This document shows, piece by piece, positions 2,621-49,925 of a stretch of DNA of 52,313 nucleotides. The DNA is taken from the IMG/VR virus record IMGVR_UViG_3300028024_000013, positions 1 through 52,313 of that record; one strand, written 5' to 3'. Under the pieces are notes generated by a model. That model searched no databases. It had not been told where the DNA came from and was given only the letters and a program-made list of their open reading frames with translations. Position 1 is the first letter of the stretch, and each line of letters starts with the position of its first letter. The stretch is from a virus. Both the position numbers and the translations under genes were made by a program.

Positions 2621-2621
2621 A

Positions 2622-3833
2622 TTACGGGCTCAGCGTGACAGAGTCACGGTCGTTGCCCGTGTATGTCACGATGGCGCGGGTCGCCACACCATCCGGTGTC
2701 TTGAAGGTTCCACCGACTGTCTCACCGAGCACGGCCGCGAGAATGAGTCGCTGCGCCTGATCCGCAGTCACTGGGGTACTCGCCTGGGATTCGACGACAC
2801 GAGCACCCGAAGCCGCAGCGATTTCTGTCCCGACATCGGAAGCCACCTTGGCGGCCGTGATGGCATCGGCTGCAATCGCAGTAGCCGTCAATACTCCAGA
2901 CTGCATGGCACCGACACTCACATCGAGCCGTCCCGATATCAGACTCGACAGAGCTACGCCATTTACCTGTATGGCGTTGACCTGCAGTACACCGGAGGTT
3001 GCCGGAACAGTCGTGCCGCCAATCTGGTCCGTGTTGGCCGTTACGCGTGCCGTGACTGAAGCTACGGAACCTGAGAGATTGCCCGTGATGTTGCCCACAA
3101 GATCCGAATCGATTTCATTTCCGCTCGTCACCGTGCACTGAATGCCGTGACCCGAAGTTGCTCCACCGATGAAGCTCGCGCCGTTGCCGGTTGCGCCACC
3201 GCTTGATTTCAGACCCTGCGCAGAACCCTGACCGACGAGCTCCAGTGCAATCGCATTGCCTGCGGTTCCCGTCGCCTTGATGGCGCTGCCTGAGGTCGCG
3301 CCACCCACGGCAGAGATACCGATACCCGTCGCACCACCTGTAGCGAGAATTCCTGCGCCTGTTCCATTGCCGGCTGCACTGATCGCGGGCTGGTTAGTCG
3401 AACTGCGGGAGACGAGCAGGCCATCGGAGATAGTGAGCGAGCCTGTGACCGTGAGAGCCGCGAAGGTCGTCGTGCCGGCATTCGTCCCGTTGATATGCAG
3501 GCCACCTGAAGCGCCTGCAGCAGCGGTACCCGAAAAATTCAGCTGCGGATTGAAGGCGACTACTTCACCGATGATCATGTCGGTGGGGTCTGCGCCGGTG
3601 CCTGTCGCATGGAGACACAGAACACCCAGCGTATTCGAATCGGTGGCATTCCCGGCCACCTTGTACCAGCCATTGGATACTTCCGTGACCGCACCAGATG
3701 GCGAGGCAAATGCGCCCGCTGCTTTGCTGATCGTGACCGTCGGAGTAAGACCCGTCTTGCCCGTGACGTGATCCGTACTGTCGGTCATGAAGAACATGAT
3801 CGGATAGGCGGTGGTCGATTGCTGGATCAGCAT
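2622..3833 (-). CDS. Phage fibre-type structural protein, Gly/Ala/Thr-rich
   Basis: A 403-residue protein. The first 95 residues (motifs TTAYPIMFFMTDSTDHVTG and VSNGWYKVAGN) match a domain that recurs in phage appendage proteins. Residues about 110-245 are low-complexity beta-type sequence with repeated GGATSG and GNGTGAG motifs, suggesting a repetitive beta solenoid or fibre shaft. The C-terminal third is alanine-rich, possibly helical, and ends in a short beta segment. No catalytic motif is visible. It lies in the run of late genes between Q and cos and is probably a tail or head fibre subunit. Confidence 0.6.
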   Translation of the reverse strand: MLIQQSTTAYPIMFFMTDSTDHVTGKTGLTPTVTISKAAGAFASPSGAVTEVSNGWYKVAGNATDSNTLGVLCLHATGTGADPTDMIIGEVVAFNPQLNFSGTAAAGASGGLHINGTNAGTTTFAALTVTGSLTISDGLLVSRSSTNQPAISAAGNGTGAGILATGGATGIGISAVGGATSGSAIKATGTAGNAIALELVGQGSAQGLKSSGGATGNGASFIGGATSGHGIQCTVTSGNEIDSDLVGNITGNLSGSVASVTARVTANTDQIGGTTVPATSGVLQVNAIQVNGVALSSLISGRLDVSVGAMQSGVLTATAIAADAITAAKVASDVGTEIAAASGARVVESQASTPVTADQAQRLILAAVLGETVGGTFKTPDGVATRAIVTYTGNDRDSVTLSP

Positions 3834-3842
3834 GCCTGTTCT

Positions 3843-5804
3843 CTAATGAGCATTGGTGCCAAAGATTCTCTGACGCCGTTTACGTGCCTGTGAGGCGCCC
3901 GTTCCCGGTGTCCCAATCGTCCATTGCGGTGACACGCCGTAGGTGTTGAGCGCACTTCCCGCCTTCGTCACACGGAAGTCGTAAATCTGTCCGTTCGAGG
4001 CGTTGCTGCTCGCCTTGAGACACCACTCTATTTCGGTGTAGTCGTCGGTCGTAATGTCGATGGCGGGCGCAGGGTTACTGCTTTCGCACATCTCACCCGC
4101 CACGAAATCCGCCGTTGTCTTGCCACTGGGCGCTGCGAGTTGAGCCGTCGTCGTATCGCTGTCGGCGAACTGCGAGGACAGCGCGAGCTGAATCGGCTTG
4201 TCGATCTGACGCAGCCGGATCATGACCGCAGCACCCGCCGTGTTCGCCGCGTTCGTGCTCGAGGCCGTTGCGGTAAATGTCCCCGCTGCTGAACTCGTGC
4301 CTGATGTCACCGCGTGCTGACACACGATGATGCGACAGTCGTTACCGGTGGAGACCGCAGTATCGGTGTGCTCGGTCAATGCACCATAGGTCATGCCGGT
4401 CTGCGAGAGCGCTTCCGAGGCCCACGTTGCCGTGTCTTCGGATGAGCCAGCCGCTACGAACACCAGATCGCCTGCGGTCACCCCCGGATCGGTGCCGAAC
4501 GTCACACTGAATGCGGTACCCGCACTGTTGTCAGAGCCCGTCGCCGTCGCCGCATCCCAGTTCTTGCCGGTGGTCTTGGTCGAGCGCCAGATCACCGCTC
4601 CACAACTGGTGCCCGAGGTAATCGCGAGCGTCACACTGCCCGATTCGGTCCCGACCGCTTCCCGTCCGAACACCGTGACGCGAATGACGCCCGTGCCCGC
4701 TGCCTCACTGCCCGCACCGCCCGTCACCGTCGCAAGCTGCGTCCAGCCTCCTGCGGGAATCGTAGGCGTTGAGGCATTTGGCCGATTGACCACGGCCATG
4801 AGCAGGTAATCACCTGCCGCTATCGAGGCGGGATATGCAACCGTAGGCGCCGTGGTGCCCGTGTTGGTCGTAGTCCCAATCGTGCCGAACGCGAGCGCAC
4901 CTGCACCGGCGGCTTCGACTTTCGCATAGACCGAATCGCTGGAGAGTTTCGTCTCCAGTTGAAACTGGGTGCTCGCCAGATCGGCCGTCGTATCGATCAG
5001 AAAACGCAGTCGGGTGTTTATTCCCGTCGTTCGCGTGACCGAGGTGTCCTGAGTCGCAAGTGAGGACGCCGCCGTTTCGCTGCCATCATCGGCCCGCCAC
5101 AGAAATCCTTCCTGCGTGGTGGTGGCGCCACCGAATGACCCCGGCGGGGGATCGGATGCCCCGTTGGTGACCGAGCCGCTCGTCGTGAACGTGAACGCAT
5201 TCGGTCCCTGGTCGACCGAGCTCGTATCGTTAAAGTGATGCGAGAAGAGCAGACCCGTCGTGATGACAGGAGCCGTCGCGCTTGCTTCGGCGAGCAGTTC
5301 TGCATTGCTGAATACGCGCGCCCATGCACGGACATGAGCGACTTCACCATTGAGGCTCGTGACCGCCGTCGGATCGGCGAGCTGGCCGATGCGAATGTAG
5401 CGCTGCAGCTGCGAGAGCGCAGTGAAATTCTGCTTCTCGACGAGCGTCGTGTTATCGCCAATGAACCACGTCGTGAGCGGGTTCGCACCCGCCGGACGGG
5501 AGATGGCAATGTAGATCCACGTGTTGATCGGCAGCGGCACGCCCGTGAAGCCGAACCCGCTGCCGTTCGCCGCAGCATCGAACGCGCCCGTGGCGCCTGT
5601 CGTGCCATTGTTGTACGACTCGACGGAGTCAGAACGGCTGTTGCTGAGCTGCGAGAACGAGACGAACGGCTCGAAGCTCGTCCAGTTCACGACCTGCTTG
5701 AACCAGCCCGCGATACACAGCGCATCGGAGGCCGGAGTCAGATCGAACGAAGTCGTCAGGTCAAAGAGAATGTTGGCGCTGGCGCCATTGATACGGACGC
5801 TCAT
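3843..5804 (-). CDS. LamG/concanavalin-like appendage protein
   Basis: A 653-residue protein. The first 210 residues look like a LamG-type jelly roll: CIAGWFKQV, NTWIYIAIS, YIRIGQLAD, GEVAHVRAWARVFSNAEL and LLFSHHFND follow the usual strand order of this fold. Such domains bind sugars or proteins. The remaining 440 residues are Thr/Ser/Ala/Gly-rich beta sequence with several Ig-like stretches (for example GDYLLMAVVN and GDLVFVAAG, which look like an internal duplication about 110 residues apart). The start overlaps the stop of the preceding gene (ATGA). I infer a surface adhesin of the virion. No signal peptide is seen. Confidence 0.6.
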   Translation of the reverse strand: MSVRINGASANILFDLTTSFDLTPASDALCIAGWFKQVVNWTSFEPFVSFSQLSNSRSDSVESYNNGTTGATGAFDAAANGSGFGFTGVPLPINTWIYIAISRPAGANPLTTWFIGDNTTLVEKQNFTALSQLQRYIRIGQLADPTAVTSLNGEVAHVRAWARVFSNAELLAEASATAPVITTGLLFSHHFNDTSSVDQGPNAFTFTTSGSVTNGASDPPPGSFGGATTTQEGFLWRADDGSETAASSLATQDTSVTRTTGINTRLRFLIDTTADLASTQFQLETKLSSDSVYAKVEAAGAGALAFGTIGTTTNTGTTAPTVAYPASIAAGDYLLMAVVNRPNASTPTIPAGGWTQLATVTGGAGSEAAGTGVIRVTVFGREAVGTESGSVTLAITSGTSCGAVIWRSTKTTGKNWDAATATGSDNSAGTAFSVTFGTDPGVTAGDLVFVAAGSSEDTATWASEALSQTGMTYGALTEHTDTAVSTGNDCRIIVCQHAVTSGTSSAAGTFTATASSTNAANTAGAAVMIRLRQIDKPIQLALSSQFADSDTTTAQLAAPSGKTTADFVAGEMCESSNPAPAIDITTDDYTEIEWCLKASSNASNGQIYDFRVTKAGSALNTYGVSPQWTIGTPGTGASQARKRRQRIFGTNAH

Positions 5805-8314
5805 AGGCCGTTACTCGCCAGGAGCACCGCATAACAGCCTTCGGTATGGGCCTGAGCCCACACGAGGATCGAACGGCCATCACCGACGTCTTCGAGGAGG
5901 TTGAACTTGCTGAACGAGCCTGCGGCAGTGGTCGGACTGATCGTCGCGCCACCGAAGGTCACCGAGGTCCAGCTATACGTGCCGGTGAACGGATTGCTCG
6001 GGATCGTCAGCACACGGACGGTGTTGCCGCCGTGGTCGTAGGCGTACACCTTGCCGCTGCGCTGGTGATAGACCGCGCCCGTGCCACTTCCGTATGCACC
6101 TGTCCCCGTCGGAACCTTCTGCGCCCACGTCGCCACCGGGTTATCCGGGTTGAAGATGACGATGTAGCCTTCGAGGTGGCCGATGATGCCGACGCGCTTG
6201 TCCGGCGCGATCACCATCCAGCTCGCATGGCCATTGCCGACCGCGCCGAGCGAGACGTTGTACTGCTGGGCAGTGAACTTGCTCGCATGCATAGACCAGA
6301 GTGACTGGCCGTTCGCATTCGAGCCCACATTCGGACAGCGGAAGAGCTTCCAGCTATTCGGATCGAACGCCGCAGGCCCGCCCTGCGTGTCCATGTTGCC
6401 GCCCTTGACGGGCATCGGATCGCCGTGACGTACCCATGGGGCCGCGGCAGACGAAACAGGGAATGACGTCAGCGAGCGTCTGTCGAACGTCCACGCTTCT
6501 GTCTGGCGTCGGCCGTTCGAGTACGTGCCCTCAGGACCGAATACCCAGAGCTGGCGCGCGGCCCAGAGCGCCGTGTTCCAGCCGTGATAGCTGCGAATCT
6601 TGCCGTCGCTGTAGGCACTGCCGGGGCCGCTGAATTCGACGTCTGCGCCATCGACCGCAATCGTGGGATTGGAGATGCGGAATGCACCCGGCGTATTCGT
6701 GCGCAGGCGAAAGCCGATGACATCGTTGCCGCTCGAGTCGGTATGACCACCCGTGGCCGGCAGGATCAGCTCGCCGTCCCATGGATTGACGACGGCCGGC
6801 GTCCATGCGGTGAACTTCGAGCCGAAGTCGTAGCCGCCCGGAATCGTGGTCGGCATCGCGTCCATCCAGCGATTCGGCGCCGTGCTTCCGAGATGAACGA
6901 CGGTGTTCGTCGCGAGGCTCGTTGCCCATGTCGGAAGCGTCGCGCCTGGTACGTCCTGCGGACACTCGATGAACTCGCGGCTGAAGATGATCGAGGCGAG
7001 ATCGTGATCCCAGCCTGATTCGGGAATGGCGTTTGCCGTCTCACCTGTCGCATTCATGAATGCATTGACGGCGATCGCATTGAACGCCTGCGGCCACGGA
7101 TCGGTCGTGCCGTAGGACCAGACGTAGTCTTTCTTTTCCCAGATCTTCGTGTACTCGCGCTCGTTCCTGCGCGCGACCCACACCTCGACCCACGTGTCGT
7201 TGTTGGGATTCCCGGCCATCACCGGGTTATCGCCACCGCCGCCGTCGTGGCCCGGCTTCACATGGATCAACAGCGTGACGTACTCGTCCGCCGGGAAATT
7301 CCAGCACGCGGTCTGCGTGTTGCTGCCGATGAGACAGGTCGACGAATAGTCCGCGCCCGGCTGGAATTCTCCAGAACCGGAACTGCCCTGCTCGGAGGTC
7401 AGATGCGAGTTCGAGCGATTCCCGAAGTTCGTGTACATCTGGTACACGGCGCTCGGATTCGACTTGACGACGAGCTCCTGATTGAGCGTGCGCGGCTGCT
7501 GCGTACCCAAACCACCCGTGGGTCCGTCACCCGAGGTGAGGATCATGAGCAGCTTGCCGTCGGGCTGGCCGGGCAGGAACCTGCCCGCGCTCATCCTCAC
7601 ACGAGCCTGGATGTAGAAGTCCCAGCCCGGAATGCTGTCCGCGTGAAACCCGCCCGAACCGCCATCACCACGAATCGGATTGGTGACCGTCGACAGATAG
7701 TCGGGGTGGTAGTAGTACCCATCCGCCCATAGGCCCAGCTGAGTCGAGCTCGGCACCCACGTCTTGCGAGCGAGCGTTCCGTTCAGCGCAGGATCGGGCG
7801 TCGCCTTGCCGTTGCCCGGCGAGTTGAGCGGCGAGAAAGGACGTTCCCATCCGCCCTGACAGATGCCACCGGCAGGGACACGACAGCGCACCGCGCCGCC
7901 AGAGATGCCGTCTGGTATCCAGAAGACTTTCGCGGGATCGCTCGAGGGATACTTGAAGGCGTCGAACTCGGAAGACGTCGCGAAGTCATGCGCCCAGACC
8001 ACACCCTTGGCGGTCGAGCGCTTGGTCCAGTCTGCCTGCACAAGAGTGGTATTCGTTCCTCCGCCGGGCTGGGTGAACGTTCCACTGATGCCCGATGTGG
8101 CATTGGCGAGCGTCACGCCAATCGAGCCGGTGCGGTTCGGAGCCGCCGCAAAGATGCCGCGAAACGCCGCAGTCGCACTCTGGAGCGGGCTGTTCAGCGT
8201 TCCCGTTCTGGCCGGAGCCGGCGTGAACGTGCCGCGGATATTCGTCGTTACGCTGGCAAGCGTGTTCGCGACCCGCCCGAGAATCGAGGGCTGGTCAATG
8301 AAGCGAATCGCCAT
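5801..8314 (-). CDS. Large appendage protein: beta repeats, lectin-like centre, propeller-like C-terminus
   Basis: An 837-residue protein. The first 90 residues hold three copies of the 25-residue unit shared with the protein at 1712-2620 (for example IGVTLANATSGISGTFTQP). Residues about 100-430 form a Trp/Gly-rich region (FYIQARVRMSAGRFLPGQ, EYVTLLIHVKPGHDGGGG) resembling lectin or polysaccharide-lyase jelly rolls. Residues about 450-837 have spaced blade-like motifs (VWVFGPEGTYSNGRR, KRVGIIGHLEGYIVIFNP, GKVYAYDHGGNTVRVL), suggesting a beta-propeller or Kelch-like end. The shared repeat suggests docking to the same partner as the 302-residue protein. A receptor-binding or depolymerase role is possible; no catalytic residues can be assigned. 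Confidence 0.6.
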   Translation of the reverse strand: MAIRFIDQPSILGRVANTLASVTTNIRGTFTPAPARTGTLNSPLQSATAAFRGIFAAAPNRTGSIGVTLANATSGISGTFTQPGGGTNTTLVQADWTKRSTAKGVVWAHDFATSSEFDAFKYPSSDPAKVFWIPDGISGGAVRCRVPAGGICQGGWERPFSPLNSPGNGKATPDPALNGTLARKTWVPSSTQLGLWADGYYYHPDYLSTVTNPIRGDGGSGGFHADSIPGWDFYIQARVRMSAGRFLPGQPDGKLLMILTSGDGPTGGLGTQQPRTLNQELVVKSNPSAVYQMYTNFGNRSNSHLTSEQGSSGSGEFQPGADYSSTCLIGSNTQTACWNFPADEYVTLLIHVKPGHDGGGGDNPVMAGNPNNDTWVEVWVARRNEREYTKIWEKKDYVWSYGTTDPWPQAFNAIAVNAFMNATGETANAIPESGWDHDLASIIFSREFIECPQDVPGATLPTWATSLATNTVVHLGSTAPNRWMDAMPTTIPGGYDFGSKFTAWTPAVVNPWDGELILPATGGHTDSSGNDVIGFRLRTNTPGAFRISNPTIAVDGADVEFSGPGSAYSDGKIRSYHGWNTALWAARQLWVFGPEGTYSNGRRQTEAWTFDRRSLTSFPVSSAAAPWVRHGDPMPVKGGNMDTQGGPAAFDPNSWKLFRCPNVGSNANGQSLWSMHASKFTAQQYNVSLGAVGNGHASWMVIAPDKRVGIIGHLEGYIVIFNPDNPVATWAQKVPTGTGAYGSGTGAVYHQRSGKVYAYDHGGNTVRVLTIPSNPFTGTYSWTSVTFGGATISPTTAAGSFSKFNLLEDVGDGRSILVWAQAHTEGCYAVLLASNGL

Positions 8315-12005: not shown

Positions 12006-15000
12006 TCACTGCACAGCCCCGCGGTTCTTCCACACTACGCCACGCGATCCGTCATCGTTCGTCGTCATGAGCCAGATCGGACTGTTCACCACCCGCGTCA
12101 CGCTCGTCTGCACGGTGATGACTCCGGTCAGGGGGTTGCCACCGTCCGCAATCTGCGTGGGGTTGCACTCGGTGACCTTGGATGTCGCCGCAGGACCGAC
12201 GCAAATCCAGTCGCCGTATTCCCGATGGAGTCCGCCCCACGTATAGGATGCCATGCCGTAGTCGTCCTTCATGACGAAGGGATCGGCGACCGTGAACGAT
12301 GTCCCGCTACCCACCGCGGAGACTTTCGTGATCGGCGCGGCATCACCAAGGCCAACCGTATTCGTCGGCGAGAGCGCCAGGCCGGCCCTGCTCGGGACGG
12401 GGGTAGTCGTGCCGTTCGCGAACTTCAGCGGCGTGAGCGTGTTGTTGCAGACGTTCGCTGGCCACTTCGTGCAGTCGGCCCACGAGACCGTGCCCGAACC
12501 ATTGCCGCCGAGCGAGAATTGAGCCGCGGTGCCAGGCCCGCTTGCGATGTTGTAGTCGTAGACCGAGTCCCGCCAGTCATTGGCGTACGTGCCCTTGCCC
12601 AGCACGGTCATGTTCTTCTTGATCCATGGCACGGTCGTCGAGCCACTGTTGCGACCGTCGAGCATGCCCATGAAGATGTTGTTCCGGAGCAGCACTCCGG
12701 AGCAGTTGCGCGTGTCGGCGTTCGTCGGAAATGACACGTCGAGATCCGTCGGGAAAATCCCGGCGTGGCCGTACATCGTGTTGTTGTAGATCTTCTGCTG
12801 GCCAATCGTGTACGGCAGCACCGAATTTGCAGAGCCGAATGACAGTCCGCAGGTCGTCGACATGGACGCAACCGGGGATGTGATCTGCTTGTTGTAGAAG
12901 TAATTGCCCCGGACGATGACGCCGATGCCCCAGAGCTCCATGGAGTAGTTCCACGTCCTGCGCTCGCCGTCTGCGCCGGCGTCGTACATCTCGTTGTCTT
13001 CGACGGTCACCGGCCCGTAGGCTGCTGGAAAGGCAATCGAGCCGTGGACCTGATCGTGATTGCCGGCGCCTACTTCGAGCGTGTGATTGCCACGGGCCGT
13101 CGGATTGCGGGGCGGCACATCGGCGAAGTCACCCCAGTAGTTCGAGACCACATTCCGCCGCGCCACCTGCCATGGGCCGCGCAACATCAGGGTCTTGTGC
13201 CCCCCGCGCCGGAAGATTGAATCGATGACGACCGAGTGATGCGAGCCGAAGAAGAAGAGATCGCCCGAGTCATCCTTGTTGTAGGTGCCATCGGCGAACA
13301 GCCCCTGGTTGGCGCCGTGGTCGTAGCCCTCGACGTTCTTCACCAGCATGTAGCCGGAATCCTGAAAGATGTCGTTGGCCGTAAATCCATTACCCGTGCC
13401 GCCGCCGTGCCAGGTCTGGTTGATGAAGGCGATGTGCGAGGACTGACGCACCAGCAGCGCATGGCGGTTGGTATAGCAGTTGAAGATCGGCGCCGTGTTG
13501 TTGCGAGCACAGCCGATGTTGAACTGCGAGTGATCCCCGAGCCTCAAGCCGGTGCGATCCTCGAGGCCCCCGTCCACAATCCAGTAATGGCAATTGGTCC
13601 AGTCGCTGATGCCCTTGTCGTTGCCGGCATCGGAACTGAAGATGATGTGATCGCCCTGACGGACACGGACCGTAATCTCGTGGCCTGCCGTGCCACTCAC
13701 GCCGTTGCAGACGAGCTTCGGCCAGATCTCGGTCGCCCCGGGAACCGTCGTGCGCAGCTCGAGAATGTCATCGGGCACCCGCTGCGAAATCGCAGCCGTC
13801 GCGAGCTGCAGGTCGGTGTAGTTGCAGCCGACCCGGCACGCGGTATGCGTCGGGTCCGGAATGGTGTCCGGGGGTTTGTCGCACTCCGGGCAAGAATCCC
13901 GGAAGCCACCGCTGGCCGCAATCTGCACCTGATTCTGACCCGTGCGGGATGCTGCAAGCGATTTCCAGCCCGTCCCGTCATTCCAGCGCCAGGCGAACAA
14001 GGAGACCGCCGTGGGAATATGGAACCGGCCGTTGGTCTCTATCGTGAAATCCTGCACGCCCGAGCCGTTCTTGCAGCCTGCCCCCGGGGTGCGGGTAACC
14101 GTCCGGACATGGACCTGACTGTTGCTCGTGAGGTCATTGGCCGGATTCGAATCGCCGAACCGGTTGACGTGACCTGAAGCGGTCGAGAATGGAATCAGCG
14201 TCCCGAGATCGAAGTAACACTCCCCTGTCGGCGCATCGATAGTAACGGCCTTGCTCGCGACCGTACCGACATTCGTCGTCACCCTGACTGACCGCGATCC
14301 GAAACGGCAGTTGCCCTGAACCGCATCCACCTGGATATCGGTCGCAGACCACGAGTCCACGGTGAACGTCGAGGTCATGGCGCCGTCGACGCACTGGACG
14401 CTGCCCGTGCCCTGACTCGCACCGAACCCCGTCCCGATGACGTGCAGGTTCGTTTCCGTGGAGGTCAGGACGTTGTCGCCCGAGACGCTCGTGATCGCCG
14501 GGGCGCCCCCGCCCGAAGCTTTCAGGAAGATCATTACCGAGTTCTGCGTGGAGACACTCGGATTGCCGGTGATCAGCAGGTCCTGCTGGGCAATCGCGGT
14601 CAGCGTCGTCTGGATCGAATACGCGACCGCCATCGCGTTCGAACCGAAGGCGGCGTCTGCCGTCTCGGTGAAGTTCGGCGCAACCGCAACGCTCGTCCAC
14701 GTGTTGTTCGAGCGGCCAACGTAAATTGCCGCTTCATTCGCCGCGGTCGGTGTCAGCGCCGGGATGCGAAAGGCAGTCTGTGAACTCGCGTTCGCCGTGT
14801 TCGAGACATCCACGACCGAGGCGATGTTGGTCGTATCGACACCGCGGAAGACCAGACACTGCGCCTGCAGCGTCGTCGTAGTGCCGGGGTTGACGGTAGG
14901 ATTGGCGTCAGATCCCGCCGCAATGTGACCGTAGAGCTTCGTGCTGATGCCATTGGCGGCGAGCTCTGTGAATCCTGAAGGCGTCGGAACGGTGCCCGAC

Positions 15001-15170
15001 CCGTCGAACTCGATAGCGACGATCCGCAGGTCGTTGGCTATCGCGGCCGGGCAGACGACAGTCTTCGTCGTCCCCGTATTCGATTGCATGACGGCGCCAG
15101 AACCCACAAAGGTAATGGCCGCCAGCGCCCATCCGGGCGATAGCAGGATGAGCGCAAGCAGATAGCGCAA
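12006..15170 (-). CDS. Large right-handed beta-helix protein with Sec signal peptide
   Basis: A 1,054-residue protein from the TTG at 15170. That start is preferred because GAGG lies 6 bases upstream and it yields a clean signal peptide (MRYLLALILLSPGWALA, cleavage after ALA). A longer TTG start at 15203 would lie inside the terminator hairpin. After about 220 beta-type residues comes an IPT/TIG-like domain (about 235-330). A Cys-rich linker follows, then, from about residue 460 (GCNYTDLQLATAAI), a parallel beta-helix region of the pectate-lyase/NosD type. There are about 20 cysteines, which suits an oxidising compartment. It is the first gene after Q and its terminator. Sec export is unusual for a virion protein; it may be a secreted or surface protein carried by the phage, or a spike with an unusual assembly route. 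Confidence 0.7.
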   Translation of the reverse strand: MRYLLALILLSPGWALAAITFVGSGAVMQSNTGTTKTVVCPAAIANDLRIVAIEFDGSGTVPTPSGFTELAANGISTKLYGHIAAGSDANPTVNPGTTTTLQAQCLVFRGVDTTNIASVVDVSNTANASSQTAFRIPALTPTAANEAAIYVGRSNNTWTSVAVAPNFTETADAAFGSNAMAVAYSIQTTLTAIAQQDLLITGNPSVSTQNSVMIFLKASGGGAPAITSVSGDNVLTSTETNLHVIGTGFGASQGTGSVQCVDGAMTSTFTVDSWSATDIQVDAVQGNCRFGSRSVRVTTNVGTVASKAVTIDAPTGECYFDLGTLIPFSTASGHVNRFGDSNPANDLTSNSQVHVRTVTRTPGAGCKNGSGVQDFTIETNGRFHIPTAVSLFAWRWNDGTGWKSLAASRTGQNQVQIAASGGFRDSCPECDKPPDTIPDPTHTACRVGCNYTDLQLATAAISQRVPDDILELRTTVPGATEIWPKLVCNGVSGTAGHEITVRVRQGDHIIFSSDAGNDKGISDWTNCHYWIVDGGLEDRTGLRLGDHSQFNIGCARNNTAPIFNCYTNRHALLVRQSSHIAFINQTWHGGGTGNGFTANDIFQDSGYMLVKNVEGYDHGANQGLFADGTYNKDDSGDLFFFGSHHSVVIDSIFRRGGHKTLMLRGPWQVARRNVVSNYWGDFADVPPRNPTARGNHTLEVGAGNHDQVHGSIAFPAAYGPVTVEDNEMYDAGADGERRTWNYSMELWGIGVIVRGNYFYNKQITSPVASMSTTCGLSFGSANSVLPYTIGQQKIYNNTMYGHAGIFPTDLDVSFPTNADTRNCSGVLLRNNIFMGMLDGRNSGSTTVPWIKKNMTVLGKGTYANDWRDSVYDYNIASGPGTAAQFSLGGNGSGTVSWADCTKWPANVCNNTLTPLKFANGTTTPVPSRAGLALSPTNTVGLGDAAPITKVSAVGSGTSFTVADPFVMKDDYGMASYTWGGLHREYGDWICVGPAATSKVTECNPTQIADGGNPLTGVITVQTSVTRVVNSPIWLMTTNDDGSRGVVWKNRGAVQ

Positions 15171-15187
15171 AGTTAGCCTCGTATATG

Positions 15188-15214
15188 AAAACGCCCCGCG
15201 CAAAGGCGAGGCGT
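15188..15214 (-). terminator. Intrinsic terminator between Q-like gene and late block
   Basis: On the minus strand a 9-bp stem (ACGCCTCGC with GCGGGGCGT, one G-U pair) is followed by TTTTC. It lies 19 bases after the stop of the Q-like gene and just before the first late gene. This matches the position of lambda tR', which Q overcomes. The T-tract is short, so strength is uncertain. Confidence 0.7.
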
Positions 15215-18067: not shown

Positions 18068-18655
18068 TTAAGCGGCGTGTCGAGGCCGCTCGTCCCATGT
18101 GACGACCATCGCGTCGCGCAATGCGGCCAGTAATCGTTCTTCAGGGACACATACAGAAATCGTTTGATAACCGCGGTTCTCAGCTTTCGAGATGTAGAAC
18201 CCCTCGGTCTCTCGCTGGCCTAACTGGACCCATTCGCGATGGTGCTTCCGCCAAGCACGCCGAAGCGTCGTGAATGGCAGCAATAGGCAACGCTGCGTTG
18301 GCACGATCGCATACGCGATGAAATCGCAAGACAGATCTAGCGCGACCCACCCGGCCTTCTCGCCTTTTCCTTTTGGGTACGATCCGCGCCAGACAGACCA
18401 GAACTCAAGCAGCACATCGCCGTAGTCCTTGTGTCTAACCTTCTCGTCAACGGTAAGTGTCTTTCCGCTAGCAAGCGTTAGCACGCGGTCGATACCGCCA
18501 CGCTGCGCCCAGCCGTCTTGGCGGACGCTTGGCATGCTTATCAAATCGGGAAAGGCAGTTCGATATACATGCGGCCACCAAGGCGCATCTTCCTGCGCGC
18601 GTGATTTAGCTAGCGATTCTTGGAAATCATGCGGCAAGCTGATTTCCCCAGCCAT
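18068..18655 (-). CDS. Putative PD-(D/E)XK nuclease-fold protein
   Basis: A 195-residue protein from the ATG at 18655, the start that gives the least overlap (29 bp) with the methyltransferase gene. The segment GGIDRVLTLASGKTLTVDEK has the spacing of a restriction-type site: Asp in GID, then E-K in VDEK. Strands and helices around it (DVLLEFWSVW, WVALDLSCDFIAYAIV) fit that fold. It is encoded immediately after an adenine methyltransferase. An R-M-like pair or an anti-host nuclease is conceivable, but the family is usually annotated as hypothetical. Confidence 0.5.
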   Translation of the reverse strand: MAGEISLPHDFQESLAKSRAQEDAPWWPHVYRTAFPDLISMPSVRQDGWAQRGGIDRVLTLASGKTLTVDEKVRHKDYGDVLLEFWSVWRGSYPKGKGEKAGWVALDLSCDFIAYAIVPTQRCLLLPFTTLRRAWRKHHREWVQLGQRETEGFYISKAENRGYQTISVCVPEERLLAALRDAMVVTWDERPRHAA

Positions 18656-19793
18656 TCCAGCCTTCGCGTGGCGCGCGGGCGAATAACTCCACACGCGGCA
18701 GTGTCGGATACATGGATTCGATGAATTCGTAGAACGCCACTGGCTTCGCGCTGTGCGCTTCTCGTGGCGATTCGTATACCGAGCGCGGCCTATCTCCAGG
18801 CGCTGGCGCCGGCATGCTTCCGCGCGTCGCGATCAGTAGCAGCTCGTGCTGCTGCCGGAAGTAGTAACCCATACCGAGTTGCGGCTTCACCCACACGGCG
18901 CTGGAGCGATAGATAAAGCCCCATGAAGTCAGCACGCGCATGGCCTCGGCAAGCTTCGGGCTCGTTGCCCACATGAACAGGATGGCGTCGTCTGTAGCGA
19001 GCGCTGATACGTTAAGCGCGCAGATCGAATCGAGGTCCATAGTCGGGTACTGGTTCTCGATCGCGCGACTCTCGGACTCTGCGAACTCATAGCGCCACGG
19101 AGGATCGGCGTAGAGCACTGGATAGCGTCCGGTAGGCAACTCGGGGGTCGGCTGCGCCATGGCGGCGACAGTCGCGAGCCGTTCACCGCGCCTGATTTCT
19201 TGGCGGCCTGCTCGTATCTGCTTGGCAGCTTCGAGAATTTCCTTTTCGCCGCGCGCGACAATCTCACGCTGCTGTGACTTCGGCAGTTCGGCAACATCCG
19301 CCGCAGCTGAGACACTCACGAATCCTGACTCGACGGCACTCACGAGTTCCGGTGCCCCCGACGAGCGCACCTTCGCAGCGTGCGTGACGGTCCGCTCGGA
19401 AACGCTCAACAGTTCCGCCGCCTCAGCCTGAGAAGTCCGCAAATTTGCGGACTTATCTTCTGGCCGGTGAGCCGGCATATTCGCGAGATTCGCAGCCACC
19501 ATTGCCCGCTGCGATTCGGTAAGATGCCGACGGTGGAGATTGAGCGAGATCACGAATGCGCGCGGATCATCCCCCTCATACTCGCGCATCGGCCTATGAC
19601 TGACGCCAGTCGCTTCGCATGCTCGCCATCGATTCCGCCCGTCTAGAATCTCACCCTGATACGTCCATATCGGTTCGCGCAGTCCGTTTGCTTTCACGTC
19701 CGCGACGAACTCGTCGAACTCACGGCCCTGCATGAGCGGAAACAACTCAGATAGCGGATGGAACTTCAAGAATGCCTCACCAATGTCCGCCAA
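18627..19793 (-). CDS. ParB-like domain fused to MT-A70 adenine methyltransferase
   Basis: A 388-residue protein. Residues 1-200 are ParB/Srx-like: GEILDGRNRWRAC (about 48-59), LNLHRRHLTESQRAMVAANL and an HTH-like stretch (AEAAELLSVSERTVTHA, about 123-139). Residues about 222-388 are an MT-A70 domain with the DPPW catalytic motif at 230-233, FMWATSPKLAEAM, and a C-terminal WNGWGN. It should make N6-methyladenine in DNA. The ParB part probably provides DNA binding. Such fusions occur in phages as solitary methyltransferases protecting phage DNA from restriction or altering regulation. The 3' end overlaps the next gene. Confidence 0.85.
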   Translation of the reverse strand: MADIGEAFLKFHPLSELFPLMQGREFDEFVADVKANGLREPIWTYQGEILDGRNRWRACEATGVSHRPMREYEGDDPRAFVISLNLHRRHLTESQRAMVAANLANMPAHRPEDKSANLRTSQAEAAELLSVSERTVTHAAKVRSSGAPELVSAVESGFVSVSAAADVAELPKSQQREIVARGEKEILEAAKQIRAGRQEIRRGERLATVAAMAQPTPELPTGRYPVLYADPPWRYEFAESESRAIENQYPTMDLDSICALNVSALATDDAILFMWATSPKLAEAMRVLTSWGFIYRSSAVWVKPQLGMGYYFRQQHELLLIATRGSMPAPAPGDRPRSVYESPREAHSAKPVAFYEFIESMYPTLPRVELFARAPREGWNGWGNQLAA

Positions 19794-41621: not shown

Positions 41622-43129
41622 CCTCGCCTCCGCTGACGGGAAAGCGTGTCGAGAATGTCAGCCTTCAGCGCTTCGTTATTCGCACGCTGGATCGCAGGCA
41701 ACTGCTGGATTAGGTCCTGCGTGGCGCCACGGTTGTCCATGTACTGATTGATGGTGATGCTGGGCGCACCACCGCCGTATCCCATGGCGAATGCGCCGGC
41801 ACCACCACCCCACACGGGCTCAGGTCCGTGTTCACCCGCGACGTACCACTTGCCACTCTGAAGTGGCCCACCCTCGGCCTTGTAGCCGCCGAAGCTGCCA
41901 CCGAGCACGCTCGCGATGGTCCCGATGATCCCGCCCGTCTTCGAGCCGTAATCGCTCAGCGACTTCATGATCGCGAGCGCAGCCTGAGCGGCCACGGCGT
42001 GACGGATCACGTCGATGATCCCGAGGGCGAGACCCTTCAGACCGCCACGGAACGGATCGAAGAAGAACTGCTCCCACGCGCTGTACATTCCGCGTGCGGC
42101 TTCCTTCATGATCTCCTGCATCGCCTTGATGTCATCGTCGACCGACTTGATGAAGGTCTTCTTCGCCTCGATGGCATTCAGGTCGATTTCCTCAAGATCC
42201 TTGATAGCGACTTGCTGGTCGAGGTACCGCTCCGTCTCGGTCAGAATGGCTTTCGTATTCTGTTCGTGGCCGACAATGCTGACCTTGAATGCGGCAATCT
42301 CCTGATTGAGATTGCGCATGTAGGCTTCGTGCCGGTCATCTTCCTGACGTTGCTGACGATCTGCCGCCGCAGACATCAACGCGTCGTAACTCGTGACCGG
42401 AGTCGCGCCATGACCCGGTGAGAACGCACTCGTCGTCGAGGCGCGCAACTGTTGCGCGACAAGCTCATCGCGTTTCTTTTGCAGATCGGCTTCGTTGCCG
42501 AAGCTGTCGTAGGTGCCCGGTGCCGTACGGAGGTCGTCACTGTAGACCGTTAGCCCACCCGGTCGTGACCGTACGCGATCGATCTGCGCATCGACTTCCT
42601 CGATCTGCTTCCCGATCGCGTCGATAACTTCCTGACGCGTCTTGGCGCTCTTGCGCGCCTCATCGCCAGTCTGCCCCTGCTTCTTCAGCTCACGGATGCC
42701 TGCAACGGTCTCCGCGACGACTTTCGCGGCCTTGGTAAAGCCTGAAATCAGCGCCGAGGTAATGGCATCCGCCGCAGATTTGACGCTCGGGTCCTTGAGA
42801 ATGTCGCGCAGCTCGTTCAGGTTCCTCGTGGCTTCCGGCAGGCCGGACTTTGCCGCCATCAGATCGCCGGCCGCAGTCTTTACTTCCTGAAGCGCCTTCG
42901 CGAAGCCCGATGCTCCCCCACTCGCACTCGCGGTGGCGTCCACGACCTTGCGAAACGCCTGCGTCAGCTGAACGCCGACGAATATTCCGAGCACGCTGTT
43001 GAGCGTCTTGACCGTGTTGCGTACGTCTCGGTCCATGTCCCTGAAGCCGCGCAGCACAGATCTGATCGCCGAGGCCGTCTTGTCGTCGGCGGCAATGACG
43101 TACCGGGCAGTAGCGGAAGGGGTTCCCAT
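41618..43129 (-). CDS. H: Tape measure protein
   Basis: A 503-residue helical protein. The N-terminal 60 residues (ARYVIAADDKTASAIRSVLR) resemble many tape-measure openings; coiled coils fill the centre; hydrophobic segments occur near 45-58 and 355-385; the end is Gly-rich. The start overlaps the stop of the GT frame (TGATG). Length sets tail length; at about 0.15 nm per residue a tail of roughly 75 nm would be expected, about half of lambda. Confidence 0.85.
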   Translation of the reverse strand: MGTPSATARYVIAADDKTASAIRSVLRGFRDMDRDVRNTVKTLNSVLGIFVGVQLTQAFRKVVDATASASGGASGFAKALQEVKTAAGDLMAAKSGLPEATRNLNELRDILKDPSVKSAADAITSALISGFTKAAKVVAETVAGIRELKKQGQTGDEARKSAKTRQEVIDAIGKQIEEVDAQIDRVRSRPGGLTVYSDDLRTAPGTYDSFGNEADLQKKRDELVAQQLRASTTSAFSPGHGATPVTSYDALMSAAADRQQRQEDDRHEAYMRNLNQEIAAFKVSIVGHEQNTKAILTETERYLDQQVAIKDLEEIDLNAIEAKKTFIKSVDDDIKAMQEIMKEAARGMYSAWEQFFFDPFRGGLKGLALGIIDVIRHAVAAQAALAIMKSLSDYGSKTGGIIGTIASVLGGSFGGYKAEGGPLQSGKWYVAGEHGPEPVWGGGAGAFAMGYGGGAPSITINQYMDNRGATQDLIQQLPAIQRANNEALKADILDTLSRQRRRG

Positions 43130-43290
43130 CAGGACTCTTCGGTCGAACGACGCTGTTGATCAGCCATATGTTTCAGATAGACACACGCGTAGGTGAATTC
43201 GTCCTCACTCCAGTTGAGGACATCTCCCGGTCGGACGCCCCATTCATGCGACACGTGCAACAGCATGAAGGTCGAGGCGTCCGTGGTCAG
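43129..43290 (-). CDS. T-domain extension of tail assembly chaperone (made by -1 frameshift)
   Basis: The -1 frame after the slippery site is open for 53 residues and ends exactly at the tape measure start (TGATG). It reads HEWGVRPGDVLNWSEDEFTY and ends in a charged tail, and has no start codon suited to independent use. Slippage would give a 179-residue G-T fusion. In lambda the gpGT fusion recruits the tube protein to the tape measure. Confidence 0.85.
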   Translation of the reverse strand: MTTDASTFMLLHVSHEWGVRPGDVLNWSEDEFTYACVYLKHMADQQRRSTEES

Positions 43291-43296
43291 TTTTTT
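43232..43296 (-). promoter_or_regulatory. Programmed -1 frameshift signal (A AAA AAC plus stem)
   Basis: The heptamer A AAA AAC (43290-43296) is in the zero frame and is followed by the G stop codon. After a 6-base spacer comes an 8-bp perfect stem (CGGACGCC at 43276-43283 pairing with GGCGTCCG at 43232-43239) around a 36-base loop. A CATGC/GCATG inner stem may stack in the loop. Site, phase, spacing and stem are those of canonical bacterial -1 frameshifting. Confidence 0.9.
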
Positions 43297-43667
43297 GCGG
43301 CGTCCTCCGGAAGCGTGTACTGATCGCGCATCTCCGCAGAGATTCGCGAAATCACATCCGGGTCACACCCGAGCAGCGCTTCGAACTGGGATTCGTTGAA
43401 AAGCAGGTCCCCGCGCACATCGCGGGACCGCACGATGACTTCCATTGCTTCCCGGCCGTGCCGGTCCATGATCAGCCGTGTTTCTTCGCCATTGATCCTT
43501 GCGCCAGCCTGGGCTGCGATGTTGATCGAGCGACGCTCCCCGGCACTGAGATGCGGCCAGTAGAAGATCGACAAGTCCCACTCTGGGACTTTGATCTCGA
43601 CGAGCTGTTCGGGTGAGCGGAAGTTCGCGAAGTGCTGGCGGGCCTTGAGCAGCGCCGAATCGCTCAT
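43287..43667 (-). CDS. G: Tail assembly chaperone (G-like)
   Basis: A 126-residue protein from the ATG at 43667, which overlaps the tail tube stop (ATGA). A GTG three codons upstream is possible but badly spaced. Sequence is mixed helical (PEQLVEIKVPEWDLSIFYWP; RSINIAAQAGARINGEET), with TLPEDAAKN at the end over the slippery site. Place and frameshift mark it as the lambda G equivalent, needed to assemble the tail around the tape measure. Confidence 0.8.
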   Translation of the reverse strand: MSDSALLKARQHFANFRSPEQLVEIKVPEWDLSIFYWPHLSAGERRSINIAAQAGARINGEETRLIMDRHGREAMEVIVRSRDVRGDLLFNESQFEALLGCDPDVISRISAEMRDQYTLPEDAAKN

Positions 43668-45681: not shown

Positions 45682-47589
45682 TTACGAGAGGTCCGTGCCG
45701 ACCACGAACGCCTGCGGGTAGCGCAGCATGATGTCGACCATCCACATCGCGCGGATGCCGACCTGCGCCGTGTTGAAGCGCGTGCCGCCGTTGTCGGTGG
45801 AGAGTTCCAGAACGCCCCACTCGCCGATCACCAGTTCGTCCCATGAACCGAAGATGATGTTGGCCGAGGCCAGCTGTTCCGAAGACATCGCACGGAAACC
45901 GACCAGCCGACCATCTAGAAGGTCGCCTTCCCACAGCGGACTATCGGTGCTCGTGAAGCGCTGGCGCTGCATGGCGATCGCTGCGCCCGCGATATTCGTC
46001 ACCCAGCCCGGATTGCCGCGAATCGCATTGACCGCACCAGCCGCCACCGGGAATGCCAGAGCTTTGGTGTAGGAGAAGGTGCTGGCGCTCTGGCCCGTCG
46101 TGACACCGGTCGTGTTCTTGATGCCGAGCGGCTGAGCACCGCCAGTGCCGTTGATGGACGCATTGTCCACACCATCGATTGCGACGTCAGCCGCGAGATC
46201 CGCCATCACGAACGCTTCGGCCGAAGGAGACGACTGCGCGAGCAACTGCTCAGACACGTCCGTGATCGCGATACAGGTCTTCGGCGTCATGCTGAGCTGA
46301 CCGAGCGTCTGGTCGGCCGCGGTCACACTCGTGCCTTCACCGGCCTGCCATGTCACCGTGACCTTGCCAGTCTGACGCGGGAAGATGACATTGCCCTGCA
46401 GGCCCGAAATGACACGAGCGCCCATGTTCATAGCCACGGAACGGTTCCGCAGAATGTCGATGAAGCCCATGTTCTGGACGTTGACGAGATACCCGCCCTT
46501 CGAGCCGGGCGTCGTCGCCATGGCGCGAGAAGCCGCCTCTCCGAGAGGACGCTGAAGCACTTCTGAGGGGATCAGGATGCTGGAGGTCAGCTCGCGACCG
46601 AGTCTCTTGCCGACTGCGTTCGAGCACTCGATCTCGTACGCCGCCTCCTCGATCAGCTTCGGACGCTGGCCGCCGAAGCGCAGCGCGCGAACGGCACGGA
46701 ACAGACTGAACCGATCCGCTTCACGAGCGGAGAGACCCAGCGCTGCCGCCTGCATCGGATTCTGACGGCCGCGTGCTTCCATGACATCCAGAATCTGGCT
46801 CGCTACGCCGGCTTCGACGACTCGCCCGTTGGCGTCGCGAACGTCGACGAGTTGCGTACCTTCAGCGATCCAGCGCGCTTCGACGCGAGCATCGATCTTG
46901 TTGGCCTTGCACAGATTCTGAATCGCCTGCCGGCGCTCGTTTTCTGCCTGAGTTGCACTGATCTTGGGGTCGGCGCTTGCGCCCGCCGCGGCATTTGCTT
47001 CGGCCATTGAAGGCTCCTTGGATGTGGCGGTTAACGCCGGGATAGAAACTTCGCGAGATGTCTCCGCAGGGGCAGGAGACGAAGAAGCCGCCTCAAGGGC
47101 GGCTTCAGTGGGGTGAGTTGTTTCGCCGGTTGGTCCGGCATCTGGCGGCAAGACGACAGCCCGTCCCACGCCAACCGTCGTATCTGCCGGGACCGGAACG
47201 ATGCTGTTCTCGATCGGCTCCCAGTCCGTGGAGCGATAGGTATCCATCTCGTCATCGGTGGATTCGAGTCGCATTGCGTGCACTCGATACCCTACGGATG
47301 TATTCGAACGAATACCGTCATCGACGTCGGCGAGGATGTCGCTCGCCAGTTGCGTGCGACTGAACCGCCCATTTCCGCGACCGACACGATCGGCGCCGAT
47401 GATCGCGGAATCCATCACACCGATCTGCTGACGCATGTCGTGATTCAGAAGAAGCGGCGCGCGTCCGCTATTCATGAAATCCATGCGCACGGACTTCGGA
47501 GAATGATCGAGAATCTCACGGCCGAACCAACGCTCGACAGGAGCCTCGGATGAGAACGACATCGCTCGCGAGCGGCCCTTCTCACTCAT
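45682..47589 (-). CDS. Prohead protease fused to major capsid protein
   Basis: A 635-residue protein from the ATG at 47589 (8-bp overlap with the upstream stop; a start at 47634 is also possible). Residues about 1-110 are an HK97-type S78 protease with His50 (LLLNHD) and Ser98 (SVGY). A Pro/Ala/Glu-rich linker (about 130-195) may act as scaffold (delta) domain. From about residue 300 the HK97-fold capsid follows (GGYLVNVQNMGFIDILRNRS; WDELVIGEWGVLELSTDNGG). An internal ribosome site at codon 195 could give a separate 441-residue product. The protease would mature the prohead. Confidence 0.85.
   Translation of the reverse strand: MSEKGRSRAMSFSSEAPVERWFGREILDHSPKSVRMDFMNSGRAPLLLNHDMRQQIGVMDSAIIGADRVGRGNGRFSRTQLASDILADVDDGIRSNTSVGYRVHAMRLESTDDEMDTYRSTDWEPIENSIVPVPADTTVGVGRAVVLPPDAGPTGETTHPTEAALEAASSSPAPAETSREVSIPALTATSKEPSMAEANAAAGASADPKISATQAENERRQAIQNLCKANKIDARVEARWIAEGTQLVDVRDANGRVVEAGVASQILDVMEARGRQNPMQAAALGLSAREADRFSLFRAVRALRFGGQRPKLIEEAAYEIECSNAVGKRLGRELTSSILIPSEVLQRPLGEAASRAMATTPGSKGGYLVNVQNMGFIDILRNRSVAMNMGARVISGLQGNVIFPRQTGKVTVTWQAGEGTSVTAADQTLGQLSMTPKTCIAITDVSEQLLAQSSPSAEAFVMADLAADVAIDGVDNASINGTGGAQPLGIKNTTGVTTGQSASTFSYTKALAFPVAAGAVNAIRGNPGWVTNIAGAAIAMQRQRFTSTDSPLWEGDLLDGRLVGFRAMSSEQLASANIIFGSWDELVIGEWGVLELSTDNGGTRFNTAQVGIRAMWMVDIMLRYPQAFVVGTDLS
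47005..47019 (-). promoter_or_regulatory. Internal Shine-Dalgarno and ATG inside the protease-capsid fusion
   Basis: AAGGAG (47014-47019) lies 6 bases before an in-frame ATG (47005-47007), after the protease domain. Starting here would give a 441-residue product with scaffold remnant and capsid domain but no protease. This would supply excess capsid over protease, as in other phages with nested head genes. Confidence 0.7.
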
Positions 47590-47782
47590 GATCGTTCTCG
47601 ACTGTTCCGCCTGCGGCATAGAGCACGCAATCACGTTTCATGAACTCAGGCGCGTGCCGTGTTCGGAAAGCATTGGCCTGCTCTTCCGTAACGTTGTCGA
47701 GCGCGAGTTCACGGCCGTTCGGAAATGTGAGCACGGCACGCCTTTTCTCGGCGTCGTAACTCATCTGGATCGTGTCGCTCAT
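47582..47782 (-). CDS. Small protein between portal and protease (66 aa)
   Basis: A 66-residue protein with beta-hairpin front (IQMSYDAEKRRAVLTFPNGR) and helical tail. It overlaps the portal stop by 4 bp and the protease gene by 8 bp. Possibly a head assembly accessory. A terminator in the portal 3' end lies just upstream. Confidence 0.55.
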   Translation of the reverse strand: MSDTIQMSYDAEKRRAVLTFPNGRELALDNVTEEQANAFRTRHAPEFMKRDCVLYAAGGTVENDHE

Positions 47783-49389
47783 TTGGCTACCTTCAGAGAC
47801 GAAAAACCCCGCGCGGGCGGGGTTGGTTCAGAAGAGGATTGATTCGGTTGTGGCGGTGGTGCCTGTGCCGCGGGGTCTGGTTGCGCTGCCCCTGTGCCCG
47901 CGGTCTGCTCCGGATTCGTATCGAGCACGAGACCTGCCTCGTCGAGCATTTCGAGTTCGCGCTCGCGCTGCTCGATCAGGTCCTCGATGTCCGAGCCCTG
48001 ATTGACGAGCACGTCCTGCAGGGTCTTGAAGCCTGCCCGGACGGCATCCTTGTCTGCCTGCACTTCCTTCGTCGGGTCGACGTAGACCCAGCCGCGGGTA
48101 CGGAACTGCGCGGCTTCGTAGCGCTTCGGCTCGAGTGCGTAGGCCATGAGCGGAATCGTCGTCATGACCTGCGCATACATGGCCTGTCGAAGCCATTCCC
48201 TGTGGATCACCTCGCGGAACTCGCGGATGAACCACTGCTGGATGTCCTTCCACGAGTCGCGATCATCGTTCAGGGACAACTTCAGCGGCGAGTAGTCGGC
48301 CTGGCTGTAGTCGCCCGACAGGGATGCATAGTTGACGCCGATACCCACTGCGACCTCGCGCTTCTTCTCGCGCATGAAGTCCGCGTACTGGGGATTCGGA
48401 GAATTCATCGGCCCAGCCGAAAGCTTCTCGCCGGGATTCAGGCGCTTGTAGGTCCCAGGTTCGACCTGCATCTCATATGAGCCATCGCTCTGCTGTTCGG
48501 AGAATGACGAGGCGTCTTCCGGCGTCTCAATGGCTCCGTTCACACACGCCTGACTGCGCGCACGAGTGATCTCCGCCTCCGCGTAGCCGCCCATGTCATT
48601 CACGGTCTCAGCCACCGCATGGAGCCACGGCTCACCACGGGTCTGCGGCCAACGATCGATACGGGCGAGATGAATGATCTGCTCCGCCAGAACGCGCTCG
48701 ACCTGATCGCGCTGCACGGTCCCGATCCAGCGATCCTCGTTCGGATGCGCACGGCGGATGTAGTAGGCGACCGGGCGGAAGAAACGGTCCACCTCTACGC
48801 CCATGCGGATCTGGTTGCCGTCCGCCACCTGAAGCGTCGCGAAGTCGACGTTGTCGGCAATCCGCTCCGCCTCGATCACTTCGAGCGCGTACGGGATGTC
48901 CGAATCGGGCATCTTCGTGAAGTGCCGGCGGATAAAGACTTCACCCGCATCGAACACCTGCCCGATCAGGAAGCGCTCCATGTCGGGCAGACTGAGCCGG
49001 CCTCCGGTGTGGCAGTACTTGGCACAGCTCCACTCGCAGAACTTCTCTTCGATCTCGTCATTGACGCGCTTGTTGAACTCGTCACGCGTCGTCTTCACCT
49101 GCGCCTGCAGACGGATTCCGCAGCCGATGATGTTGTTGATCGTGATCTTGCGGCCGCGCTTGGCGTAGGGCGAATCGCGACCTAGAGCACGGGACCGCGA
49201 ACGAAGCTCCCGAAGGCTCGTGTCGAGCTCGGCATCGGCCGACGTATTCGAAACTGTCCAGCCGCTCGTCAGACGGGACTTCTTGGCGCTCGCATACATG
49301 CGCTGTCCGCTGCCGATTGTTGACGGCACGCGCACGATCTCGGGCCTGATGCGCAAAAGTCTGCTCATCAGCGCCTGAAATCGATTCAT
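47779..49389 (-). CDS. B: Portal protein (lambda B family)
   Basis: A 536-residue protein. SRALGRDSPYAKRGRKITIN, then NIIGCGIRLQAQ is the lambda-family portal signature; EWSCAKYCHTGGRLSLPDME, YALEVIEAERIADNVDF and VNYASLSGDYSQADYSPLKL follow in the expected order. The portal is the 12-fold DNA gate at the capsid vertex. The C-terminal tail is Pro/Gln-rich and its codons contain an intrinsic terminator. The start overlaps the gpW-like stop (ATGA). Confidence 0.92.
   Translation of the reverse strand: MNRFQALMSRLLRIRPEIVRVPSTIGSGQRMYASAKKSRLTSGWTVSNTSADAELDTSLRELRSRSRALGRDSPYAKRGRKITINNIIGCGIRLQAQVKTTRDEFNKRVNDEIEEKFCEWSCAKYCHTGGRLSLPDMERFLIGQVFDAGEVFIRRHFTKMPDSDIPYALEVIEAERIADNVDFATLQVADGNQIRMGVEVDRFFRPVAYYIRRAHPNEDRWIGTVQRDQVERVLAEQIIHLARIDRWPQTRGEPWLHAVAETVNDMGGYAEAEITRARSQACVNGAIETPEDASSFSEQQSDGSYEMQVEPGTYKRLNPGEKLSAGPMNSPNPQYADFMREKKREVAVGIGVNYASLSGDYSQADYSPLKLSLNDDRDSWKDIQQWFIREFREVIHREWLRQAMYAQVMTTIPLMAYALEPKRYEAAQFRTRGWVYVDPTKEVQADKDAVRAGFKTLQDVLVNQGSDIEDLIEQRERELEMLDEAGLVLDTNPEQTAGTGAAQPDPAAQAPPPQPNQSSSEPTPPARGFSSLKVAK
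47802..47824 (-). terminator. Intrinsic terminator within the portal 3' coding end
   Basis: AACCCCGC-CCGC-GCGGGGTT plus further T residues on the minus strand: an 8-bp perfect stem with a tetraloop, running into five T. It lies entirely inside the last 15 codons of the portal gene, ahead of the protease-capsid gene. Confidence 0.85.
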
Positions 49390-49925
49390 ACGAATCTCAC
49401 CTTGATATCGCGACCCTTGGCCGCTTTTGTACCCAGTTCTTCACTCTTGACTTCGGTCCGCAGCTCCGCGCGCCACTCACGAAGCTCGGAGAGCGACCAG
49501 CGTGCGATCGAACGGCCACCGATGGACATGCTCGCCTGCGCCGTCGAGGCGTTGCCTTCGAGGAAGGCCTCGATCGCATCGAGCGTCCGGCGCGCCCACG
49601 TACGGGTATCGGTCGTGCCCGACGCCGCCGGGTCAACTTCGACTTCGACGTAGACGGATTCAGCGATGAAGACCTGCGTGCCATCGGTCACGCGGACGCG
49701 AACGAGGTAGCGACCGGGCTGATAGGTCGCGGTCGTCGTCGCATCGACCGTAAAGCGATGAGACGTGCCGTTCACAGCCGCGGGCACGTTGAACGTCCTG
49801 CCGGTCTTCTCGAAGTACGCCGTGGCAGTCCACGTGGAAGGCGGGAAGTCCGCGAACTCCCGGTCCCATACCCATGTGTTGCCGGCGATCAGAGCGGTCG
49901 GCAGGGTTGCGGGAACGTCGGGCAC
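49386..49925 (-). CDS. Head-tail connector-type protein with gpW-like C-terminus
   Basis: A 179-residue protein with a GTG start overlapping the terminase stop (TAGTG). Residues 1-105 form an Ig-like beta domain (STWTATAYFEKTGRTFNVPA; YLVRVRVTDGTQVFIAESVY). The last 70 (RTLDAIEAFLEGNASTAQAS, then RSIARWSLSELREWRAELRT) match the gpW head-tail joiner pattern. It sits between terminase and portal as lambda W does. A fusion of a beta domain to gpW is unlike lambda W (68 residues). Confidence 0.65.
   Translation of the reverse strand: MPDVPATLPTALIAGNTWVWDREFADFPPSTWTATAYFEKTGRTFNVPAAVNGTSHRFTVDATTTATYQPGRYLVRVRVTDGTQVFIAESVYVEVEVDPAASGTTDTRTWARRTLDAIEAFLEGNASTAQASMSIGGRSIARWSLSELREWRAELRTEVKSEELGTKAAKGRDIKVRFV

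Follow-up and report, generated by a model that had tools for sequence, protein, structure and literature searches.

The window, that is, the whole 52,313-nucleotide stretch of viral DNA analyzed here, contains on its minus strand two overlapping reading frames, G and T, that sit between the genes for the major tail protein and a presumed tape measure protein, with T in the -1 frame relative to G (Table 1). The region 5' of G contains the genes for the major tail protein, a tail terminator, and head closure, and on the 3' side of T lie the presumed tape measure gene as well as genes for a distal tail protein and other tail functions.

Table 1. Positions of the features of the G and T locus in the window
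Feature	Position	Strand	Properties and basis
Major tail (tube) protein, 216 aa	43664..44314	minus	phrog_584 (E 1.5e-20), Phage_TTP_11
G, predicted tail assembly chaperone, zero-frame product	43287..43667	minus	126 aa, ATG to TGA; phrog_344 (E 5.1e-6)
GGAGGA, Shine-Dalgarno-like, candidate upstream stimulator	43303..43308	minus	sequence; same-register GAGG in CRP-type relatives
Slippery heptamer A AAA AAC	43290..43296	minus	in phase; kept in relatives
Zero-frame stop TGA	43287..43289	minus	directly behind the heptamer
Candidate stimulatory hairpin	43232..43283	minus	outer 11-bp stem, inner 7-bp stem, 13-nt loop; folding, recoding, and slide tests
T, -1 frame extension	43129..43290	minus	53 codons and TGA, recomputed from sequence; three-helix model; profile match to CRP-type T
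In-frame ATG within T	43264..43266	minus	lacks a ribosome site; not conserved
Presumed tape measure protein, 503 aa	41618..43129	minus	position; counterpart position in CRP-811 annotated as tape measure

The overlapping G and T frames

The ATG of G overlaps the stop codon of the major tail protein gene. By profile search, the G product was assigned to the tail assembly chaperone family phrog_344; a Pfam search with G gave no match, and an AlphaFold model of G was unusable (pLDDT 52). The 3' end of G reads GCA AAA AAC TGA, which places an in-phase heptamer of the XXXYYYZ form near the G terminus, with an immediate stop, just as an earlier note on this DNA had described. From the CTG at 43290, the T frame is open for 53 codons until a TGA (43131-43129) that shares one base with the ATG of the next gene (TGATG). 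The predicted G-T fusion is 179 aa in length, and recomputation thus reproduced the values given previously for the fusion, the extent of the -1 frame, and its end at the tape measure start. The 503-aa product of the next gene matched no named family in PHROG and Pfam profile searches, and we presume from its position, by analogy, that it is the tape measure protein.

Exact AAAAAAC occurs at two sites on the minus strand of the 52-kb window and at none on the plus strand. When ORFs of 80 or more codons were scanned for a slippery heptamer within 25 nt of their end that is accompanied by a long -1 extension, the heptamer in G was the sole one recovered on the minus strand. The portal gene (window 47779-49440, minus strand) has an in-phase GGGTTTT 28 nt ahead of its end, accompanied by a 65-codon -1 extension; this combination is probably due to chance.

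Several other features of the window were recorded. The major tail protein contains an E1_FCCH domain (PF16190), which is also present in Pelagibacter phage tail tubular B-like proteins and in Xanthomonas and Vibrio phage tail proteins. The major capsid protein is apparently fused to a protease (window 45682-47634, 650 aa), as it matched families of head maturation proteases as well as of major head proteins. A 388-aa MT-A70 methyltransferase has a ParB-like N-terminal part (window 18627-19793), and large minus-strand ORFs of 302, 403, 653, 837, and 1065 aa (window 1712-8314 and 12006-15203) matched neither PHROG families (E values up to 1e-5) nor any Pfam family at a score exceeding that family's cut-off.

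Conservation of the overlap and relationships of T

The open T frame proves nothing alone, because -1 frames that are open for 52 or more codons occur at 73 of the 166 ORF ends in this GC-rich window; its length was consequently rejected as evidence by itself. The abundance of such frames speaks for a chance overlap without function, and the A-run might also reflect a fixed or sequencing frameshift. However, the same arrangement is found at the same base in independent contigs and in cultured phages of several lineages, which leaves either form of this explanation extremely improbable.

Two close sequences, L002 and L003, encode G proteins with 88% and 58% identity to that of the window, respectively. 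The G frame ends with AAAAAAC TGA in L002 and with AAAAAAT TGA in L003, each followed by a T frame that ends at the start of the next gene. The T frame lacks stop codons in 3 of 3 close sequences, and other frames contain stops across the set. Conservation of T among these sequences (47-52%) is below that of G, with DAS, EWG, P, and WSE-E kept, and the T frame has a dN/dS of 0.16-0.44. A search of phage records with the G-T fusion and a scan of genome contigs with G found nothing, and a contig scan with the major tail protein gave only one weak match. Relatives identified by their head genes, such as ep3 and PPpW-3, were uninformative on T, as they have baseplate and tail genes of the myophage type.

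More distant relatives were found around the cultured siphophage CRP-811, which has the same gene order as the window. Its annotated chaperone ends GAA AAA AAC TAA, and the gap before its tape measure gene holds an unannotated -1 frame of 52 codons when counted from the heptamer. This unannotated T frame, between the chaperone and tape measure genes (L029:8940-9080), is also present in the same gap of L110 and L111. CRP-822 and CRP-406, kin of CRP-811, have long non-contractile tails (PMC12629253), and the word "frameshift" is absent from the paper describing the CRP phages (PMC12629253). A scan with the CRP-811 G yielded 80 environmental loci, which together with CRP-811, CRP-821, and CRP-406 make up the 83 CRP-type sequences used below; CRP-type G is so divergent that tblastn from the window did not detect it. 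AAAAAAC lies directly before TAA or TGA in 83 of 83 CRP-type sequences, the position of the zero-frame stop is identical in these sequences, L002, and L003, and T spans 51-57 codons in the 81 of 83 sequences in which its frame is complete. The earlier note had named relatives that lack both the heptamer and the open -1 frame as evidence against frameshifting; both features are present in all three close and all 83 distant sequences.

The same note had stated that T has no start codon of its own, and this holds only in part. An in-frame ATG does exist, as codon 9 of the window T and codon 7 of the L002 T, and TTG and GTG codons near 43266 as well as a second ATG further on are also in frame. 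One could therefore propose that T is a separate small protein whose translation begins at the ATG at 43266 or by re-initiation once ribosomes have terminated G, and that the A-run is incidental. Against this proposal, none of these starts is preceded by a visible Shine-Dalgarno sequence, an ATG is absent from the L003 T and from 63 of the 81 complete CRP-type T frames, and residues conserved just past the heptamer (DAS in one set, DPFR in the other) lie upstream of any such T start. We regard separate translation of T as very unlikely.

The T product was confidently modeled as three helices by structure prediction (pLDDT 89.7). The model matched nothing in the PDB, and in fold comparisons it was similar, with weak E-values, to portions of phage proteins annotated as tail chaperones. 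The window T alone matched no Pfam or PHROG family, and an in-register alignment of 47 residues links its profile to that of the CRP-type T (hhalign E 3.6e-5). In a related tail protein locus (L008:4443-4775 and L009:3365-3697), AAAAAAA is followed by a 106-codon -1 frame that matches Pfam family PF06223, Minor tail protein T; the L008 product did not align directly with the window T. Because the window T aligns with the CRP-type T, and the CRP-type, L008, and lambda T proteins all match phrog_337, an indirect but coherent chain of profile matches would place the window T in the lambda T family.

RNA elements that flank the heptamer

Downstream of the heptamer, positions 43283-43273 are predicted to pair with 43242-43232 in an outer stem of 11 bp, including G-U pairs, and a 3-nt bulge separates this from an inner stem of 7 bp (43269-43263 with 43249-43243). 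The basal 8 bp of the outer stem are all Watson-Crick pairs (arms CGGACGCC/GGCGTCCG), so the perfect 8-bp stem noted previously, together with its 6-base spacer, is present and forms the base of a larger hairpin. The spacer, counted from the last heptamer base and thus including the stop codon, falls inside the range of 5-9 nt downstream of the heptamer that has been described for stimulators of -1 frameshifting (PMC5009743). The window hairpin has a folding energy of -27.9 kcal/mol, and 0 of 200 shuffled sequences were equally stable. It is kept in L002 and L003, with z scores of -3.8, -5.2, and -4.9 for the window, L002, and L003 set.

Among the three close sequences, 32 of 33 cells of the 11-bp stem are paired (97%), compared with at most 46% when one arm was slid, and one pair is altered on both sides; covariation relative to shuffles (165/500) was not significant alone in this set of three. 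When T was recoded synonymously, the observed stem pairing was rarely matched in single sequences (P 0.016-0.027) and was matched in 0 of 5000 trials for all three jointly. In addition, 12, 0, and 0 of 1000 recodings of the three sequences were equally stable in fold energy. Because synonymous recodings of T rarely or never match it, stem pairing exceeds what T protein coding imposes.

The CRP-type sequences contain a 12-bp stem that starts 6 nt past the heptamer and has its partner arm ∼80 nt away. In this stem, 96.3% of cells are paired; shuffles gave 94.5 ± 0.3%, and sliding lowered the figure to 43% or less. There were 9 double changes versus 3.1 in shuffles. Relatedness can inflate these comparisons with shuffles. 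Among 51 distinct sequences, pairing was 95.9% as observed versus 86.6% after synonymous recoding.

These stems also bear on whether the fusion could arise from slippage of RNA polymerase, rather than of the ribosome, on the A-run, which comprises 6 A residues in the window and 7 in L003 and most CRP-type sequences. Polymerase slippage is rare on A-runs this short. A conserved downstream RNA stem at a constant 6-nt spacing points instead to the ribosome, and slippage during transcription is in our judgment a hardly credible source of the fusion.

Upstream of the heptamer, the window contains a GAGG, inside GGAGGA, that ends 7 nt before it, and a near-invariant GAGG is present in the same register in the CRP-type sequences, also 7 nt upstream. 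At this site, 63 of 64 distinct CRP-type sequences encode glutamate with GAG, whereas GAG accounts for 41% of the glutamate codons in the rest of G, where invariant glutamates use mixed codons. For the window alone, GGAGGA was not significant relative to synonymous recoding. Because the window element is within synonymous expectation, its possible role as a dnaX-like upstream stimulator is a lead and not a result.

A probable G/GT-type frameshift and its known counterparts

Based on the phrog_344 assignment of G, its position among tail genes, and the retention of heptamer, spacer, stem, and T in relatives, the G-T tail chaperone reading of the earlier note is supported, and it is very probable that a programmed -1 ribosomal frameshift yields G and G-T tail assembly chaperones from one start, as in lambda. 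We infer that most ribosomes would stop at the TGA behind A_AAA_AAC, giving G, and that a minority would be held by the hairpin, perhaps also by pairing of GGAGGA with 16S rRNA. The tRNA-Lys and tRNA-Asn of a held ribosome could then slip back one base and re-pair on AAA AAA, and translation in the -1 frame would produce the 179-aa G-T. The lambda system suggests by analogy that G may bind along the tape measure protein, that the T domain may recruit the major tail protein, and that neither G nor G-T would be expected to remain in the virion.

Frameshifting of the G/GT type is known from lambda and has been conserved widely among long-tailed phages (PMC5009743, PMC10885494). The mechanism is thus a known one; what is new here is this particular example, the lack of an annotated T in the CRP-type records that were examined, and the repeated three-part layout. 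The locus is a further clear and testable instance of the G/GT frameshift, and it draws attention to a ∼50-residue T domain that the published CRP-type marine phage genomes in this analysis leave unannotated. The invariant heptamer of the 83 sequences, its stop, the fixed 6-nt spacer, and the differing stems form a natural series for studying what determines the G:G-T ratio.

The window resembles lambda in the gene order of major tail protein, G, T in the -1 frame, and tape measure, in having a slippery heptamer near the G end, and in the indirect profile link between the two T proteins by way of phrog_337 and the CRP-type T. The heptamer is G_GGA_AAG in lambda and A_AAA_AAC in the window, T comprises about 145 codons in lambda and 53 in the window, and the window differs further in having a stop directly behind the heptamer and a stable hairpin 6 nt downstream. 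A_AAA_AAC has also been reported for the G-T frameshift of HCTV-2 (PMC5009743), a haloarchaeal siphovirus with an archaeal host that is likened to the window by this description.

The E. coli dnaX cassette, like the window, combines an A_AAA_AAN heptamer with an 11-bp stem downstream and a Shine-Dalgarno-like element upstream (PMC5009743). It differs in gene and purpose, in using A_AAA_AAG, and in the distance of the Shine-Dalgarno element, which is 10 nt upstream in dnaX and 7 nt upstream in the window (PMC5009743). About half of ribosomes shift at dnaX. In E. coli, A_AAA_AAC shifts less than A_AAA_AAG (PMC5009743), which counts against the frameshift reading of the window.

The CRP-822-type roseophages (CRP-811, CRP-821, and CRP-406) share with the window the head-tail gene order, a phrog_344 chaperone, A_AAA_AAC and its stop, a short T, a stem 6 nt downstream, and GAGG upstream, but the arms of their stem are ∼80 nt apart, whereas the window has a local hairpin. 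We lean, with some reserve, toward the view that a dnaX-like cassette of three parts (GAGG upstream, A_AAA_AAC with a stop directly behind it, and a stem that starts at precisely 6 nt downstream) has persisted as a tail-chaperone switch in the window phage and throughout the CRP-822-type siphophages, a family-level group, with its stem rebuilt and its short T left unannotated.
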